Below are positions 2,005-8,250 of a stretch of 64,000 bases of DNA, piece after piece (position 1 is the first letter of the stretch; every line of letters begins with the position of its first letter). A program made the translations under genes and the position numbers. This DNA is from Streptantibioticus rubrisoli (lineage in GTDB: Bacteria; Actinomycetota; Actinomycetes; Streptomycetales; Streptomycetaceae): NCBI RefSeq assembly GCF_024436055.1, contig NZ_JANFNH010000001.1, positions 558,001 through 622,000 on the forward strand, written 5' to 3'. The notes beneath the pieces were generated by a model, which was not told where the DNA came from, made no database searches, and saw only the letters and a program-made list of their open reading frames with translations.

Positions 2005-2763
2005 TCAGCGCACCGCGACCAGCACGTATCCGGTGCCGAACTGCCAGACTGGGCAGATGTGTTGGAACCCCGCCCGGCGCAGCAACTCGACGTGATGCGA
2101 CAGGGGCAGGCCGTTGTCGGGGTTGTGGTGTGCGCTGGACGGCCTGGGCTGGTCGGTGAGCAACTGCGCCAGCTCGGGTTCGTCCGCCGCGGCCGCCCAC
2201 CACGACGTCCAGTCCTCCAGGTCGTGCGGCCGCCGCCGTTCGGCACGGCGGCGTCCCACCTCGACGGCGATCCGCGACGCCGGATCGCCGCCGGGCTCGA
2301 AGTGGTCGCTGTTGACCAGCACCCCGCCCGGCCGCACCAGTGCGGCGAACTGCCGGTAGGCGTCTGCCAGCACCTCCACGGGTAGGCAGTGCAGCGCGGT
2401 GGTGGAGACGACGGCGTCCAGCGGACGGTCGAGTGCCATGGCCCGTACCCAGCCGTCCGCCCCGATCGTCGCCTCCACGAACTGAGCCGCCGCCGCATGA
2501 TGGGTTCTGCCCAACTCCAGCAGCAACGGGTCCCGGTCGACGGCCACGATCTCCGCGTGCGGCAGCCGCCGCACCAGTCGCGCGGCCAGTGACCCGGGGC
2601 CACAACCGAGGTCCACGACCAGCGGGTTCGGCTCGTCGCGGACCACATGCTCAACGATGTCCGCGATCACCGTGAACCGCTCCTCACGATCCACGGCGTA
2701 GCGTTGCTGCTGGCGCTCCCAGCGCTCCACCCACAGCGCGGCCGTTGCCATGCTCAGTCCCAT
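2005..2763 (-). CDS. Class I SAM-dependent methyltransferase
   Basis: A 252-residue Rossmann-fold methyltransferase. Motif I is VVDLGCGPG (residues 49-57), with the acidic end of strand 2 in VAVDRDP and a motif IV-like region DAVVSTTALHCL. The substrate is not evident. ATG 2763 is favoured because GGAGGTGG precedes it at good spacing. The gene ends 11 bases past the convergent permease stop. A Zur-box-like palindrome (2823-2837) and a TAGTCT -10-like box (minus strand, 2817-2812) lie upstream, so it probably has its own zinc-controlled promoter instead of relying on read-through from the PLP-enzyme genes above it. Confidence 0.8.
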   Translation of the reverse strand: MGLSMATAALWVERWERQQQRYAVDREERFTVIADIVEHVVRDEPNPLVVDLGCGPGSLAARLVRRLPHAEIVAVDRDPLLLELGRTHHAAAAQFVEATIGADGWVRAMALDRPLDAVVSTTALHCLPVEVLADAYRQFAALVRPGGVLVNSDHFEPGGDPASRIAVEVGRRRAERRRPHDLEDWTSWWAAAADEPELAQLLTDQPRPSSAHHNPDNGLPLSHHVELLRRAGFQHICPVWQFGTGYVLVAVR

Positions 2764-2822
2764 CGGGTCGCGCCACCTCCAACGTCTCGTACCGTCCGCT
2801 CGGGCGGTACGAAGACTACAGG

Positions 2823-2837
2823 TGGAAACGATTTTCA
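2823..2837 (-). promoter_or_regulatory. Zur-box-like palindrome upstream of the methyltransferase gene
   Basis: TGGAAACGATTTTCA matches the streptomycete Zur-box pattern (TGAAAA-NNN-TTTTCA type) at all but one arm position. It lies 60 bases upstream of the methyltransferase start and about 5 bases from a TAGTCT -10-like hexamer, so a bound repressor would block the -35 region. Recognition is by pattern from memory of Zur sites. It is not a scored match. Confidence 0.6.
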
Positions 2838-2849
2838 ACTGAGTGTGCT

Positions 2850-4061
2850 TCACTCCAAGGTGGCCAATACCCGCAGAAGTCGGTCGATCTCTTCCGGGGC
2901 GTTGTATACGTGCAGACTCACCCGCACCGAGTTCTGCCTCTCGCCCGCGCTGCCCTGGCAGTGGCTGTCGCTGCGCACCATGAACCCCTCGCTGAACAGC
3001 ACGAACCCCAGATCGCCCGAGTCGATGCCACGGTGCCGGAAGGAGACGATGCCTCGCCGCTGCTGCACGTCGGACCCGGCCGCCAGACTGCGTTGGCAGC
3101 CCAGCACCTCGTACGGCGCGAGCTGACGCAGCCCCTCGGTCAGCCGGGCCGCCAGTGCGGTCGTCCAGCGCTCGATGCGGCCGGTGCCCGCGGCGTCCAG
3201 CCAGTCAAGTGCCGCCCGCAGACCGGCGATTCCGCTGGTGTTCGGGGTGCCGTCCCAGCCGCCCGGTGTGAACCGGGGGCCGCGTGCGTTGCGGGCCCAC
3301 ACCGCGCCGCTGCCCGGCAGGGCCAGCGCCTTGTGGCCGGAGAACACCGCGAAGTCAACGTCGAGTTCGGCCATGGAGACCGGCAGATGGCCCACGCTCT
3401 GCGCGGCGTCCAGGCAGATCGGTATGTGCGGCCCCACCGCCCGGCGGATCCGGTGCACGTTCATATCACCGCCGTAGACATGGTGGACATGGGTCACCGC
3501 CACGAACCGGGTGCGTTCGCCGACCACTTCGCGCAGCGCCCCCGGCTCGTAGTCATGGGAGTCCGGCTGGTACGGCATGGGGCGCACCGCTACCCGCACA
3601 CCCCGTCGGGCGAGCAGGTCACGTGCCTCAAGCCATGGTGCGATGTTGGCCTGGTGGTCGGCGAACGGGACGACGATCTCGTCCCCGTCGGAGAGGAAAC
3701 CGGTCAGCCAGTCCCGCGCCACGGTCCGCAGTCCTTCCGTGGCCCCGCTGGTGAAATGCACGTCGGAGCGTTCCGGCGCGGGATCGCGCAGGAACTCCTT
3801 GACGCGCCGCCGGGTGTCCCGTACCAGTTCCGTCGTCTGGTTGGCCCAGGTGTAACTGCCGCGCCCGGCATTGGCGTTGGTCGTGGTCAGATAGGTGTGT
3901 ACGGCGTCCAGTACCGCCCGCGGCTTCTGCGCGGTCGCCGCGCTGTCCAGGTACGCCAGCTCCGGATTGCCCGCGATGATGGGGAACTGGGCGCGCAGAG
4001 CGGTGTGCCATGCGCGTAGCTCCTCCAGTACGTCGGTGGCCTGGTCGCTCGTGGCGGTCAC
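2850..4061 (-). CDS. Class V aminotransferase, cysteine desulfurase (SufS/CsdA)-like
   Basis: A 403-residue PLP enzyme. The fold starts with LAYLDSAATAQKP (residues 36-47). It has the ADHQANIAPW segment near 134-143, the aspartate of CLDAAQSVGH near 218, and the PLP-binding lysine in FSGHKALALPG (K244). A cysteine in SDSHCQG (C368) sits where SufS-type desulfurases keep the persulfide-forming residue, so sulfur release from cysteine or a related amino acid is plausible. GTG 4061 was chosen: it lies 7 bases after the upstream gene's stop, with GGGAG overlapping that stop. Third gene of a coupled minus-strand unit of PLP enzymes. The physiological substrate is unknown, and it is not part of a suf operon. 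Confidence 0.8.
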   Translation of the reverse strand: MTATSDQATDVLEELRAWHTALRAQFPIIAGNPELAYLDSAATAQKPRAVLDAVHTYLTTTNANAGRGSYTWANQTTELVRDTRRRVKEFLRDPAPERSDVHFTSGATEGLRTVARDWLTGFLSDGDEIVVPFADHQANIAPWLEARDLLARRGVRVAVRPMPYQPDSHDYEPGALREVVGERTRFVAVTHVHHVYGGDMNVHRIRRAVGPHIPICLDAAQSVGHLPVSMAELDVDFAVFSGHKALALPGSGAVWARNARGPRFTPGGWDGTPNTSGIAGLRAALDWLDAAGTGRIERWTTALAARLTEGLRQLAPYEVLGCQRSLAAGSDVQQRRGIVSFRHRGIDSGDLGFVLFSEGFMVRSDSHCQGSAGERQNSVRVSLHVYNAPEEIDRLLRVLATLE

Positions 4062-4068
4062 CGCCGCC

Positions 4069-5388
4069 TCACTCCCGCACCAGCGGAGCGCCCGCGTCGC
4101 GCCAGGCGATGATGCCACCGGACAGGCTGCGCACATCGGGGTGGCCCATCCGCGACAGCAGTGCCGCGTACCGGGCGGACTGCTCACCGACCGGGCACGC
4201 CAGCAGCACCGGCTGGCTCTTGCTGAACGGCAGCCCACCGCGGACGAGTTCGCCGAACAACTCCTCCACGATGTTGACGGAACCCTCGATGTGCAGTGCG
4301 GCGTACGCGAAGGGGCTGCGCAGGTCGACGATGAGCGGCCGCTCCCTGGCTATCCACTTCAGGGCGTCCTCGGTGTCGATGACCGCGGCCGACAGCACCT
4401 CGGCGTCGGACAGCGTGGCGATGGAGTTCTTCCGCGGTGGACGCCCCAGCAACTCCGGCCGTCGCTCCCGGACGTAGCTGAGATAGCTCTCCATGCGGTC
4501 GCATACGATGAACACCGCCGACCTGCGCTCGGTCAACTCGGCGTCCACCGAGCGCAGTTGGCGGACGGCGCCGAAGTATGCCGCGCCGCCGGTGGGCCCG
4601 GCCAGCAGGCCGCAGCGGCGGGCCAGGGTCAGCATGCCGTCGATGGCCTCATCGGAGGTCACCGACTCCACCGCGTCATAGGTAGCCGGATCGAACAGAC
4701 CGACCGCCTGCACCTCGTCGATGGTGCGGATCCCCGGGATGAAGTCCGACTTGTGCGCCACCAGCCCGATGACCTTCACCCGTGGATCCCGCTCGCGCAG
4801 CACCCTGGCCACACCGGTGGACGAGCCCGCGGTGCCCACGCAGGCGATGAACCAGTCGGGCGCCTGCCCGTCCAGGTCCTTGACGATCTCCGGGCCGGTG
4901 CCCGCGGCATGCGCCTGCGTGTTACGGGCGTTGAAGTACTGGTCGGTATACAGGTAGGCGCTCTGCGGTTCGGCGAGTGACTGGTGAAAAAGCGTCAACG
5001 GATCGGTGGTGTTGGTGGGATCAAGGCACTCGGTCTGTCCCGGCAGTTCCTCGATCTCCGCGCCCAGCAACAGCAGCAGTTCCTTGATCTCCGGTACCCG
5101 CATCCGGTTGGTCACGCTCTTGAACGGCAGCCCGTGCATGCCCGCGATGACGGCCAGCGCCTTGGCTGTGTTGCCGCTGGACAGCTCTACGACCGTCTGA
5201 CCGCCCTCCACCGCCGCGTTGAGCCCGGGGCGCGCCATGTTCCAGGCGGCCCGGTCCTTGACCGAACCGAACGGATTGAACATCTCCAGCTTCGCGTACA
5301 GGTCGATGTTGCGCAGGCCGTGCACCGCGGGGTCGATGCGCACCAGCGGGGTGTTGCCGATGGCCTCGGTGATGTGGTCAAACCTCAT
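4069..5388 (-). CDS. Cysteine synthase-like PLP enzyme fused to a rhodanese domain
   Basis: A 439-residue two-domain protein. Residues 1 to about 325 are a fold-type II beta-substitution enzyme: GNTPLVRI at 11-18, PLP lysine in FGSVKDRA (K44), substrate loop SSGNTAKA (70-77) and phosphate loop GTAGSST (185-191). Residues about 340-439 form a rhodanese domain (IVDLRSPFAYAALHIEGS) with the active-site cysteine in LLACPVGEQS (C398). The fusion suggests that sulfur is passed from the partner desulfurase to this enzyme, or that a persulfide intermediate is handled. ATG 5388 overlaps the upstream decarboxylase stop by 11 bases, so translation is coupled. SbnA-like diaminopropionate chemistry is an alternative, but no SbnB partner is present. 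Confidence 0.82.
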   Translation of the reverse strand: MRFDHITEAIGNTPLVRIDPAVHGLRNIDLYAKLEMFNPFGSVKDRAAWNMARPGLNAAVEGGQTVVELSSGNTAKALAVIAGMHGLPFKSVTNRMRVPEIKELLLLLGAEIEELPGQTECLDPTNTTDPLTLFHQSLAEPQSAYLYTDQYFNARNTQAHAAGTGPEIVKDLDGQAPDWFIACVGTAGSSTGVARVLRERDPRVKVIGLVAHKSDFIPGIRTIDEVQAVGLFDPATYDAVESVTSDEAIDGMLTLARRCGLLAGPTGGAAYFGAVRQLRSVDAELTERRSAVFIVCDRMESYLSYVRERRPELLGRPPRKNSIATLSDAEVLSAAVIDTEDALKWIARERPLIVDLRSPFAYAALHIEGSVNIVEELFGELVRGGLPFSKSQPVLLACPVGEQSARYAALLSRMGHPDVRSLSGGIIAWRDAGAPLVRE

Positions 5389-6847
5389 GCACGCCCCCGT
5401 TATTCGTGATCGGCCAGTACTGCTCGTCAAGGCACCACCGCCAGGATCCCGCGTCCTGCCAGACGGCGACCTTGCGCGCCACGGGCTGCCGTTGCGCGTG
5501 GTCGGCGCTGAAGTCCATGCAGTAGCCCGCGGTGTTGGCGAAGGCCAACAGATCGCCGGGGACGGGCGGACGGGGCAGGAACACCATCCTGCGGGTGATC
5601 ATGTCCGCCTCCAGGCAGAGGTTCCCGGCGAGGTACGCCCCCAACGGCTCGGACGCCGCCGGGACGTGGCCCTCGCCGGGTGGGATGAGCAAGGGGTCCA
5701 TCAGCACCCCGTGCTCCTCCAGGCCGATGTCGTCCGCGTTGGCCGCCAGTCGAACCAGGTGCTCTCCGGCCTCCGTACGCCGCACCTCCAGCACCCGGGC
5801 CAGGGTGAGCCCGCACTGGTCGGTCAGCGCCCGACCGGGTTCCGTGTACAGGTCGTACAGGCTCTCCAGGAGCAGTGTGGCCAACCGGCCGCGCAGCGAG
5901 GGCGCTTGGCTGGACAGCAACGCCCCCAGGTAGCGCTCACCGGCGACGGGCCGGTACGCCGGATAGAGCCCGAGGGCGCCGCGCAGCGTTCCGGACTCGT
6001 TGCGCAGCCCGTAGCCGTGCTGGCGCCAGGTGAGCGGCGGGCGCCTGCCCAGCACCGCGTTGGTCAGCTCCGTGGTGTAGCGCTCCCATTGCCCGCCGTC
6101 GGCGAGGTAGTTGGCGCCGAAGCCGCCGCCGATGTCGATGACCCGCGGCTGGAGCCCGCGGGCGCGGCACAGGTCCATCGCCTGCAGACAGCCTTCTAGC
6201 GCCACCGCCTTCTCGGTGAGGCTGGTGGTGTCCAGGTGGTAGCCGACGCCGATCAACTCCACGGCGTCTCCGTGTCGTTCGACCCCCTTGAGCAGTCCGT
6301 CCAGTTCCATCACCGGTGAGCCGAACCTGCTCTGCCGGGTCAGCACCTTGACCCCGGGCGCGGTGAACCACGACAGCCGCAGCAGGATCCGGACCCGGGG
6401 GAGCCGGAACCGGTGCACCAGGGCGGCCAACTCCTCCAGTTCGGCGGGGGAGTCGACGTGCACAACGACTGCGGTGCGGGCGGCCAGCCATAAGAACTCG
6501 GGGTTCTTCGGGCCGGTGGCCATGATCCGGTCGGGAGTGAATCCCGCGCCCAGCGCGTGCTGGAGTTCGCCCAGCGAGGCGACCTCCACCGCACCGCCCA
6601 CGGCGGCGAGTTGCCGTATCAGGGCACTGGAACGGTTCGCCTTGTGCGCGAAGAAGACCTCACCGCCCAGCCGGTGCTCACGGTAGACGTTCCGGAAGCG
6701 CGCGAGGTTGTCGGTGATCTGCTCGGGGAGCACCAGGTTGAGCGGGGAGCCGAGTCCACCGACGAGCATGTGCAGCAACTGCCCGGACCGTACCAGGGAC
6801 GCCAGCCGGGGACTCAGCCTCGGCTCCAGGTACAAGGGGACGTCCAT
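5378..6847 (-). CDS. PLP-dependent decarboxylase, alanine-racemase fold (LysA/SbnH-like)
   Basis: A 489-residue fold-type III enzyme. The PLP lysine is in FFAHKAN (K69), the glycine-rich phosphate site is DIGGGFG (238-244), and EPGR (336-339) and a cysteine in AGNLCLEAD (C411) match the active-site set of diaminopimelate/ornithine decarboxylases. It is longer than LysA (about 420-460). Neighbours argue against a lysine role: it heads a coupled set with a cysteine synthase-rhodanese fusion and a desulfurase-like enzyme, as in specialised amino-acid or metallophore pathways where such enzymes decarboxylate an adduct. ATG 6847 has GGGAGG at good spacing. The divergent gap to the L33 gene carries a Zur-box-like site that could serve both directions. 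Confidence 0.82.
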   Translation of the reverse strand: MDVPLYLEPRLSPRLASLVRSGQLLHMLVGGLGSPLNLVLPEQITDNLARFRNVYREHRLGGEVFFAHKANRSSALIRQLAAVGGAVEVASLGELQHALGAGFTPDRIMATGPKNPEFLWLAARTAVVVHVDSPAELEELAALVHRFRLPRVRILLRLSWFTAPGVKVLTRQSRFGSPVMELDGLLKGVERHGDAVELIGVGYHLDTTSLTEKAVALEGCLQAMDLCRARGLQPRVIDIGGGFGANYLADGGQWERYTTELTNAVLGRRPPLTWRQHGYGLRNESGTLRGALGLYPAYRPVAGERYLGALLSSQAPSLRGRLATLLLESLYDLYTEPGRALTDQCGLTLARVLEVRRTEAGEHLVRLAANADDIGLEEHGVLMDPLLIPPGEGHVPAASEPLGAYLAGNLCLEADMITRRMVFLPRPPVPGDLLAFANTAGYCMDFSADHAQRQPVARKVAVWQDAGSWRWCLDEQYWPITNNGGVHEV

Positions 6848-7022
6848 CGAGGTTCCCTCCCCTGGTGTGGGCTGAGTCAGCGGCGACCCAGCGACCGTTT
6901 CGGTCTACCCATTTCCGCCCGCGAGGTGCTTTACGCCCCCCTTCGATGCGTCTGATGGCGGCGAGGTTGGCCGGAAAGCACACGTAGGCATGGGCGGCAT
7001 GTTCACTTCGCAGGGGTGAATA

Positions 7023-7037
7023 TGAAAATCAATGCCA
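7023..7037 (+). promoter_or_regulatory. Zur-box-like site in front of the zinc-free ribosomal protein operon
   Basis: TGAAAATCAATGCCA has one perfect half site (TGAAAATCA) and a degenerate second half ending in CA. It lies 16 bases upstream of the L33 start, where Zur sites are expected for these paralogue operons in Streptomyces. No clear Shine-Dalgarno sequence lies between it and the ATG. Confidence 0.5.
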
Positions 7038-7052
7038 TGTGGGCTGTCGTCC

Positions 7053-7256
7053 ATGGCTCGCGACGAACTACGCCCGACCATCAAGCTCAGGTCCACCGCC
7101 GGAACAGCTCCCCAAGTTCTCGACTCCGCTCGGACAGGGGAGACCCCATCCACCTACGTGACCCGAAAAAACCGCCGCAACAACCCGGATCGGCTGACCC
7201 TGCGCAAGTACGACCCGGTCGCCCGTCGCCACGTCGACTTCCGAGAGGAGCGCTGA
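7053..7256 (+). CDS. rpmG: 50S ribosomal protein L33, zinc-free (C-minus) paralogue, with an insertion
   Basis: The ends match L33 closely: [18 protein letters not shown] at the start and [21 protein letters not shown] then HVDFREER at the end. There is no cysteine, so it is the zinc-independent form that replaces the CxxC-containing protein under zinc limitation. Family members are about 54 residues. This one has 67 because roughly 13 extra residues ([13 protein letters not shown] region, about 19-31) interrupt the loop before TYVTRK. The reading frame stays open. It is the first gene of the L33-L31-CobW-S18 set, the same order as the Zur-controlled operon known in S. coelicolor. Whether the insertion is tolerated in the ribosome is unknown. 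Confidence 0.82.
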
Positions 7257-7261
7257 CCGCG

Positions 7262-7588
7262 ATGAAGTCCGGCATCCACCCCGAGTACCGGCACGTCGTC
7301 TTCCGCGACCGCTGCGCCGACTTCGCCTTCCTCACCCGCTCGACCATGACCAGCGAGCGCACCATCGAGTGGGAGGACGGCAACACCTATCCCGTGATCG
7401 ACGTGGAGCTCTCCTCCGCGAGCCACCCCTTCTACACCGGCACCCAGCGCGTGTTGGACACCGCGGGTCGCGCTGAGCTGTTCGAGCGGCGGTACGGGCG
7501 GGAGCACGATGAGCCTGCCCGAGCGTCGGTTGCCGGTGGCCATGGTCGGTGGTCTGCACGCGGATGCCCGCCGCGCGGCGATCGGTGA
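7262..7588 (+). CDS. rpmE2: 50S ribosomal protein L31 type B, with a C-terminal run-on
   Basis: Residues 1-83 are a clear type B L31: [16 protein letters not shown], then [10 protein letters not shown], then [20 protein letters not shown] and FERRYGR. It has no CxxC zinc site. The family normally stops just after RRYG. Here the frame continues for about 25 more residues of low-complexity sequence and overlaps the following CobW-like gene by 80 bases. A TGA sits at 7510-7512 in another frame, inside the ATGA of the next gene, so a one-base change near 7500 may have removed the native stop. Start ATG 7262 lies 5 bases after the L33 stop codon. Confidence 0.85.
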
Positions 7589-8015
7589 CATCCTGCACGC
7601 CGTGCCCGGTACGGTCGTCCTCCACCACGGCCTGTCCGCCGCGCCGGACGGCACGGTGTACCGCACCGTCCGCGACCTGAGCGGCCCGGTCAGCAGCGGC
7701 CACACCCTGTTGGTGAACGACTGAGCCTGCTGCGCCCTGCGCGAGGACCTGGTCCCCGAGCTGCTTCGGCTCGCCGAGGCCGGTACCTACCGGCTGGCCG
7801 TCGTCGAGTTGTGGGACTCCGTCGAACCGCAGGCCATGGCCGCCGTGATCGCCGCCGCGGGCGCCCCGCTGGAACTGACCGGCGTGGCCACCGCTGTGGA
7901 CCCGGCCCTCGTGCTGCCGTACCTGGCCAACGGCGACGACCTCGCCGAGGTCGGTCTGGCCGCCGCGCCCACCGACCAGCGCACCATCGCCGACACCTTC
8001 GCCCGGCAGATCGAG
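7509..8015 (+). pseudogene. CobW-like zinc metallochaperone gene, broken by in-frame TGA and 3' deletion
   Basis: The first 71 residues ([20 protein letters not shown] ...) end at a TGA at 7722-7724. In the same frame the sequence continues directly as ACCALREDLVPELLRL, then AVVELWDSVEP and [20 protein letters not shown], as in the CobW-like proteins of zinc-free ribosomal operons. The TGA occupies the first cysteine position of the CxCC metal-binding motif (TGC to TGA would explain it). Similarity ends near ARQIE at 8015; the C-terminal half normally present is missing and the S18 start follows 16 bases later. No P-loop is obvious at the N-terminus. I call it a decayed gene. Selenocysteine decoding is considered and disfavoured. 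Confidence 0.7.
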
Positions 8016-8031
8016 GGGAAAGGCTCCGGCC

Positions 8032-8250
8032 ATGTCCCGCCGTACCACCACCAAGGCCACCGACCGGCGCCGCAAGCGCGCCAACCCCCTTGACGCCGCA
8101 GGCATCACGTACATGGACTACAAGGACACCGACCTGCTGCGGAAGTTCATCTCCGACCGGGGCAAGATCCGCAGCCGCCGGGTCACCGGAGTGACCCTCC
8201 AGCAGCAGCGCGACCAGCCACGACGGAGCTGCAGACGATCGATGACATAG
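8032..8250 (+). CDS. rpsR: 30S ribosomal protein S18 paralogue, C-terminus replaced
   Basis: Residues 1-58 match S18: [21 protein letters not shown], here split as [10 protein letters not shown] and [20 protein letters not shown], then [14 protein letters not shown]. After QQQRD the usual final helix and tail (about 18-20 residues ending NAREMALLPY in the family) are absent. Unrelated residues [11 protein letters not shown] precede the stop. The total of 72 residues is close to normal length by accident. The start has GGGGAAAGG upstream. It is last in the L33-L31-CobW-S18 set. The altered C-terminus may make it non-functional. Confidence 0.72.

Follow-up and report, generated by a model that had tools for sequence, protein, structure and literature searches.

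Four genes of the window (by which we mean the whole stretch of DNA analysed, 64,000 nucleotides from Streptantibioticus rubrisoli) raise the question of whether they form a small-molecule pathway under zinc control and, if so, what kind of compound they make. The genes are read on the minus strand from 6847 to 2005 in the order decarboxylase, CysM-like/rhodanese fusion, SufS-like enzyme and methyltransferase (n = 4 genes; Table 1). A sequence-only reading of this DNA had described an 11-base overlap followed by a 7-base gap, and the coordinates agree: the decarboxylase and fusion genes overlap by 11 bases, and 7 bases separate the fusion from the SufS-like gene. From an alignment of leaders, the start of the methyltransferase was placed at ATG 2763, with GTG 2853 as a possible alternative. 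An ArsR-family regulator gene and a NicT nickel permease gene adjoin the cluster at 187-1994; in a sister genome (L130:12375-13048) the ArsR gene is retained and the permease is reduced to remnants.

Table 1. Features of the cluster and of the adjoining divergent operon, in positions of the window.
Feature	Position	Strand	Evidence or remark
PLP fold-type III decarboxylase, 489 aa, first gene	5378..6847	-	Pfam Orn_Arg_deC_N 6.4e-26
CysM-like PALP + rhodanese fusion, 439 aa	4069..5388	-	Pfam PALP 3.6e-55, Rhodanese 3.2e-16
SufS-like class V PLP enzyme, 403 aa	2850..4061	-	Pfam Aminotran_5 7.2e-72
Class I SAM-dependent methyltransferase, own promoter	2005..2763	-	Pfam Methyltransf_25 4e-14 (2005-2748)
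Predicted Zur box, methyltransferase promoter	2823..2837	TGAAAATCGTTTCCA on minus strand	consensus and matrix
-10-like TAGTCT, 4 nt downstream of Zur box	2813..2818	-	
Conserved non-Zur block upstream of decarboxylase (GGCGTAAA ... GGAAATGGGTAGAC)	6900..6937	-	
Predicted Zur box, divergent bL33 operon	7023..7037		consensus match; position as in intact paralogous operon
Zinc-free bL33, degenerate, 13-residue net insertion	7053..7256	+	
Zinc-free (type B) bL31, stop codon lost, frame runs on	7262..7588	+	
MRF/COG0523-like gene remnant, truncated, in-frame TGA 7722-7724	7509..8045	+	
Zinc-free bS18, C-terminal part lost	8032..8250	+	

A scan of public genomes with the decarboxylase gave 166 relatives, and the best 80 were analysed with up to 10 kb of flanking sequence; their hosts were Streptomyces, Kitasatospora and two Micromonospora. 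Among these best 80 of 166, the decarboxylase, fusion and SufS-like genes stand side by side in collinear order in 80/80; the methyltransferase comes directly after them in 69/80 and, at a distance of up to about 5 kb, in a further 7 (76/80). The co-occurrence of the four genes thus held on checking, with counts that are not independent since the 80 loci are related. The decarboxylase (E below 1e-150) was found in 89 of the 394 genomes of an even sample of Streptomycetaceae (about 23%); plasmid records contributed two hits without annotation. The decarboxylase and the SufS-like gene also travel along with a variant fusion of 45% identity. Variant clusters of SufS-like, decarboxylase and fusion genes (36-47% identity) occur at L102:6303-11761 and L103:2210-7627, the latter including a protein that ends in a heavy-metal-associated (HMA) domain. 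At L111:1959-11227, a close relative of the cluster, with a Fur-family gene and an MFS transporter in its vicinity, has a decarboxylase frame broken by a TAA. More distant relatives of the decarboxylase (31-34%) sit in clusters that also include SbnA-like, SbnB-like and arginine-hydroxylase-like genes, the content that would be expected of EDHA; a candidate EDHA-like cluster on contig C40 of the same genome turned out to be an ordinary lysA/threonine-type region.

The neighbourhood repeatedly involves zinc. Within about 10 kb, 28 of the 80 loci carry znuABC, a probable zur, COG0523, zinc-free ribosomal genes or a His-rich protein. In sister genome G407 the cluster diverges from a Fur-family gene, a COG0523 fragment, a His-rich gene and the ribosomal operon, and in G416 it stands beside znuC and znuB genes; because the arrangements differ between loci, this neighbourhood is not one inherited accident. 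The proposal of a small-molecule pathway with a link to zinc is supported. Downstream of the SufS-like gene, certain Kitasatospora, Micromonospora and Streptomyces loci carry an ATP-grasp gene, and most of these loci also have an MFS transporter; dapdiamide A synthase is the nearest of the named equivalog families to this ATP-grasp gene, below the cut-off. The four-gene version of the cluster has neither exporter nor importer.

The Zur motif of Streptomyces is tGaNNatSatNNtCa (PMC5472717), and a 7-1-7 box of this type is present near a promoter of the cluster. The consensus TGAAAATSATTTTCA, searched across the 64 kb with up to 3 mismatches, matched at two positions and no others, 2823-2837 with 2 mismatches and 7023-7037 with 3, whereas 100 shuffles of the window gave a mean of 0.05 matches and never 2. 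A matrix trained solely on sites outside the cluster ranked the same two sites 1 and 2 in the window, with scores of 26.5 and 21.0 and a next best of 13.3, such that the two Zur-box-like palindromes of the earlier reading passed the weight-matrix check. Genome-wide (7.26 Mb), 18 consensus sites were found, compared with 2 for the reversed control. For the stricter pattern TGNNAANNNTTNNCA there are only 6 places in the whole genome: the 2823 site, two before one znuA, one before a second znuA, and two others. The box at 2823-2837 is identical, letter for letter, to a znuA box of the same genome (G000:C31:21646). The best consensus match of the genome (1 mismatch) lies about 276 nt left of the window (L132:14726; G000:C16:557725), upstream of a small gene, MerR/TOBE-like, for which no zinc role is known. 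A further strict Zur-like site (L124:4228; G000:C16:324227) lies within a ferrochelatase-like frame, just before a protoporphyrinogen-oxidase-like gene.

At the methyltransferase promoter, the box is followed by CCTG-TAGTCT, that is, by 4 nt and the -10. A TANNNT hexamer starts exactly 4 nt past the box in 47 of the 50 loci with the main box form, and the sequence after it diverges among these 50. Because the 4-nt spacing to the -10 is fixed, the box spans the promoter spacer, such that Zur bound there should repress. The strict pattern lies within 250 bp before the methyltransferase in 51 of the 80 loci; outside the two upstream regions it occurs 14 times in 1.6 Mb, in many cases before other zinc-linked genes. 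With the matrix, 69/76 methyltransferase upstream regions scored above the 99th background percentile. Since the box is identical to that of znuA and stands 4 nt from the -10, as in 47/50 relatives, the methyltransferase is very likely repressed by Zur. As a separate matter, the leader before the methyltransferase folds well in the window (z -3.2), but its variable part does not align across relatives, and we make no claim of a structured leader.

The site at 7023-7037 tells a different story. The sequence-only reading had placed the four genes between two Zur boxes, with a zinc-free ribosomal operon diverging from them; the operon was found (bL33, type B bL31, bS18), though degenerate. The box lies 16 nt before the ATG of bL33, and an intact paralogous zinc-free ribosomal operon at G000:C60, which adjoins a Fur-family gene, COG0523, a His-rich protein and znuA, has a Zur box at the same distance. 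Because of this shared position, 7023-7037 is assigned as an operator that belongs to the divergent bL33 operon, which leaves the methyltransferase as the only gene of the window cluster with a Zur box to itself, and the bracketing of the pathway stands on its 2823-2837 side and falls on the other. In the same genome, L123:3-7340 is a compact zinc locus with a Fur-family gene, COG0523, a His-rich protein, znuA and an intact zinc-free ribosomal operon. Compared with the intact copy, the operon of the window (7010-8250) has a -10 of TGGGCT instead of TACCCT; since in addition bL33 has an insertion, bL31 has lost its stop, the MRF gene has a nonsense codon and a truncation, and bS18 has lost its end, we read it as a decaying duplicate of the G000:C60 operon. 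Selenocysteine at the MRF TGA (7722-7724) was considered and ruled out, because in the intact copy this position is a cysteine codon and, in addition, the copy in the window is truncated.

Upstream of the decarboxylase, at about 90-110 nt, there is instead a conserved block (GGCGTAAA...GGAAATGG) that differs from the Zur box; a simple pattern finds it in 38 of the 80 relatives, and it is possibly a site for another regulator or sigma factor. Only 11/80 decarboxylase upstream regions exceed the 99th background percentile of the Zur matrix. Kitasatospora and a few Streptomyces have a Zur-like box of their own before the decarboxylase, whereas most Streptomyces loci have none above the threshold. 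Either upstream region, that of the methyltransferase or that of the decarboxylase, is above the percentile in 74/80 loci; as the loci are related, such counts suggest more independence than there is, and true Zur sites form part of the background tail. A box placed to block RNA polymerase and conserved in relatives was found for the methyltransferase only. The proposed zinc control is supported from sequence for the methyltransferase, with its box and 69/76 upstream regions; in the window, the decarboxylase operon has its different block in place of such a box.

Turning to the enzymes, the PLP lysine and the HLDT, EPGR and CLE motifs of the decarboxylase are conserved in the 80 relatives, and PLP Lys44 and rhodanese Cys398 of the fusion are invariant in about 80; the loop cysteine sits in a CPVG motif that relatives conserve. 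In the SufS-like protein, the PLP lysine and the catalytic cysteine of the RxxxHC motif that mark SufS desulfurases (here RxDxHC) align with those of SufS and are conserved in about 80 relatives. The key residues of the fusion and the SufS-like protein are also kept in the 38-47% identical variant. By these signs, all three PLP enzymes of the cluster would be active. The SufS-like protein scores below the cut-off of the SufS family model (254.8 vs 475.1; 1.3e-75), and the genome additionally encodes a canonical SUF operon with its own SufS. Against the SbnA NCBIfam model (2,3-diaminopropionate biosynthesis), the cluster protein reached 149.4 for a cut-off of 349.95. The nearest relative of the PALP domain by sequence is CysM. 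In predicted structure (mean pLDDT 84), the top full-length match of the fusion over both domains is aspergillomarasmine A synthase (8h4q/8h4h), with which it shares a PALP domain and a C-terminal rhodanese domain in one chain; the other top matches are mostly to the PALP domain alone or to two-domain cystathionine beta-synthases. Foldseek gave E 1.8e-22 over 472 columns, and VIA-align gave Z 29.5 over 422 residues at 24% identity with an rmsd of about 20 A, which shows that the domains are placed differently in the fusion model. The decarboxylase model (mean pLDDT 63) matches diaminopimelate and ornithine decarboxylases, with SbnH within the top 50, and does not discriminate between them.

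We consider that the cluster has about an even chance of being a zinc-starvation pathway for a small zinc ligand. With zinc present, Zur would bind 2823-2837 across the methyltransferase promoter and repress, a step strongly supported from sequence; under zinc limitation, Zur would be released. The decarboxylase, fusion and SufS-like enzyme make up a single co-conserved unit. Because the closest two-domain structure is aspergillomarasmine A synthase, the analogy favours an aminopolycarboxylate zinc ligand built from O-phosphoserine as the first choice of product class; the EDHA-type company of the distant decarboxylase relatives and the additional ATP-grasp gene, nearest dapdiamide A synthase, point the same way. 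Aspergillomarasmine A synthase joins O-phosphoserine and L-Asp, and Fda4, a PLP enzyme with a rhodanese-like domain described for the fusadapamides, joins O-phosphoserine and L-Ala (PMC12751119). Likewise, the fusion may couple O-phosphoserine with an amino acid, possibly aspartate, through the latter's amine and so form an N-(2-amino-2-carboxyethyl) amino acid. Loss of a carboxylate through the decarboxylase would leave a unit of the ethylenediamine type, of the kind known from EDDS or staphyloferrin B chemistry; with aspartate, the adduct once decarboxylated would be the ethylenediamine monosuccinate unit of EDDS. The methyltransferase would then N-methylate the product, and the SufS-like enzyme might, as a guess, supply alanine or sulfur or act through its rhodanese partner. 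The product would bind zinc inside the cell or, in loci that also have an MFS exporter and an ATP-grasp ligase (Kitasatospora, Micromonospora), outside it. More tentatively, this could be a widespread, undescribed family of bacterial zinc ligands in which an aspergillomarasmine-synthase-like fusion has its own cysteine desulfurase, amine and sulfur donors meet on one scaffold, and Zur switches the final methylation. Counting against the preferred pathway, the conserved desulfurase and rhodanese cysteines seem hard to explain in a purely C-N route; the four-gene version is without a transporter, and most Streptomyces decarboxylases are without a Zur box; and the match to aspergillomarasmine A synthase is at 23-24% identity in a model with differently placed domains and a PALP domain nearest to CysM.

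A sulfur-centred alternative, in line with the sequence-only reading, is one that we judge unlikely: sulfur drawn from cysteine by the SufS-like enzyme goes to the rhodanese domain, a C-S bond is then made by the CysM-like domain, and decarboxylation and methylation yield a zinc-binding methylated aminothiol. The lysine and cysteine of the SufS-like protein and the CPVG cysteine are conserved in relatives and in the 45%-identical variant, CysM is the nearest sequence relative of the PALP domain, and mycobacteria have a rhodanese-fed CysM route to cysteine through MoeZR and CysO (PMC3227635). Nevertheless, a route that moves cysteine sulfur into a cysteine-like product runs in a circle, except where the acceptor is a different one, and the characterised PALP-rhodanese enzymes make C-N bonds (PMC12751119). 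The earlier description of the product as sulfur-containing thus does not follow from the genes, since the nearest two-domain structure makes C-N bonds; because the desulfurase and rhodanese cysteines are conserved, the sulfur route keeps its place among the candidates.

Sulfur could also enter as a matter of sparing zinc. Mec+ (of the CysO-CysM route) and SufU need zinc, and the cluster might be a zinc-independent stand-in for the JAMM protease Mec+ or for SufU when zinc is short. Zinc-free paralogues do occur in Zur regulons (PMC6103462), actinobacterial operons combine a ThiS/MoaD protein, a JAB peptidase and a cysteine synthase (PMC1779556), and the genome has its canonical SUF operon besides; yet the decarboxylase, the methyltransferase and the ATP-grasp/MFS additions are left unexplained, and the Zur box of most Streptomyces loci serves to control the methyltransferase and not the sulfur enzymes, which makes this reading very improbable. 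We regard as improbable, to a lesser degree, a zinc-regulated metabolite that does not bind zinc, such as a signal, an antibiotic or a storage compound: regulation by itself is no proof of function and the short version is without a transporter, but zinc uptake genes recur in the neighbourhood and the nearest relatives have chelator-type chemistry.

To our knowledge, very few zinc metallophore pathways are known from actinobacteria (coelibactin, EDDS), and the open papers that we searched held no description of a Zur-linked decarboxylase/cysteine synthase/desulfurase cluster. This one occurs in roughly a quarter of the sampled Streptomycetaceae genomes, contains no large NRPS or PKS genes of the sort by which cluster finders usually recognise a pathway, and is small enough, at four genes, for direct testing by knockout and heterologous expression. 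It points to chemistry close to the fungal metal chelator aspergillomarasmine A, which inhibits metallo-beta-lactamases.

Set beside known systems, the fusion has the domain order (PALP, then rhodanese) of the fungal aspergillomarasmine A synthase (PDB 8h4q, 8h4h) and of Fda4 from Fusarium poae; the whole-length structural match is to the former. Unlike the fungal enzymes, the fusion is bacterial and shares an operon with a decarboxylase and a SufS-like enzyme. EDHA-like loci share with the cluster a cysteine-synthase-like enzyme and a fold III decarboxylase, of about 30% identity, whereas the cluster is without their SbnB-like dehydrogenase and arginine hydroxylase. The enzyme classes of SbnA and SbnH are shared with staphyloferrin B; nonetheless, the SbnA score is 149 against a cut-off of 350, and a SufS-like enzyme and a methyltransferase stand in place of SbnB. 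In the mycobacterial CysM-CysO-MoeZR-Mec+ route a rhodanese domain likewise supplies a CysM-type enzyme, but here the two are fused and linked to a decarboxylase, in a unit with no CysO or JAB gene. The coelibactin cluster of Streptomyces coelicolor is also a Zur-repressed small-molecule cluster, with a biosynthetic logic that differs by its literature description. EDDS of Amycolatopsis japonicum has, by its description, Zur control in common with the cluster. The cluster is apparently undescribed, Zur-controlled and of metallophore type; it looks suited to making a small metal-binding molecule, probably akin to aspergillomarasmine and EDDS, which are zinc chelators.
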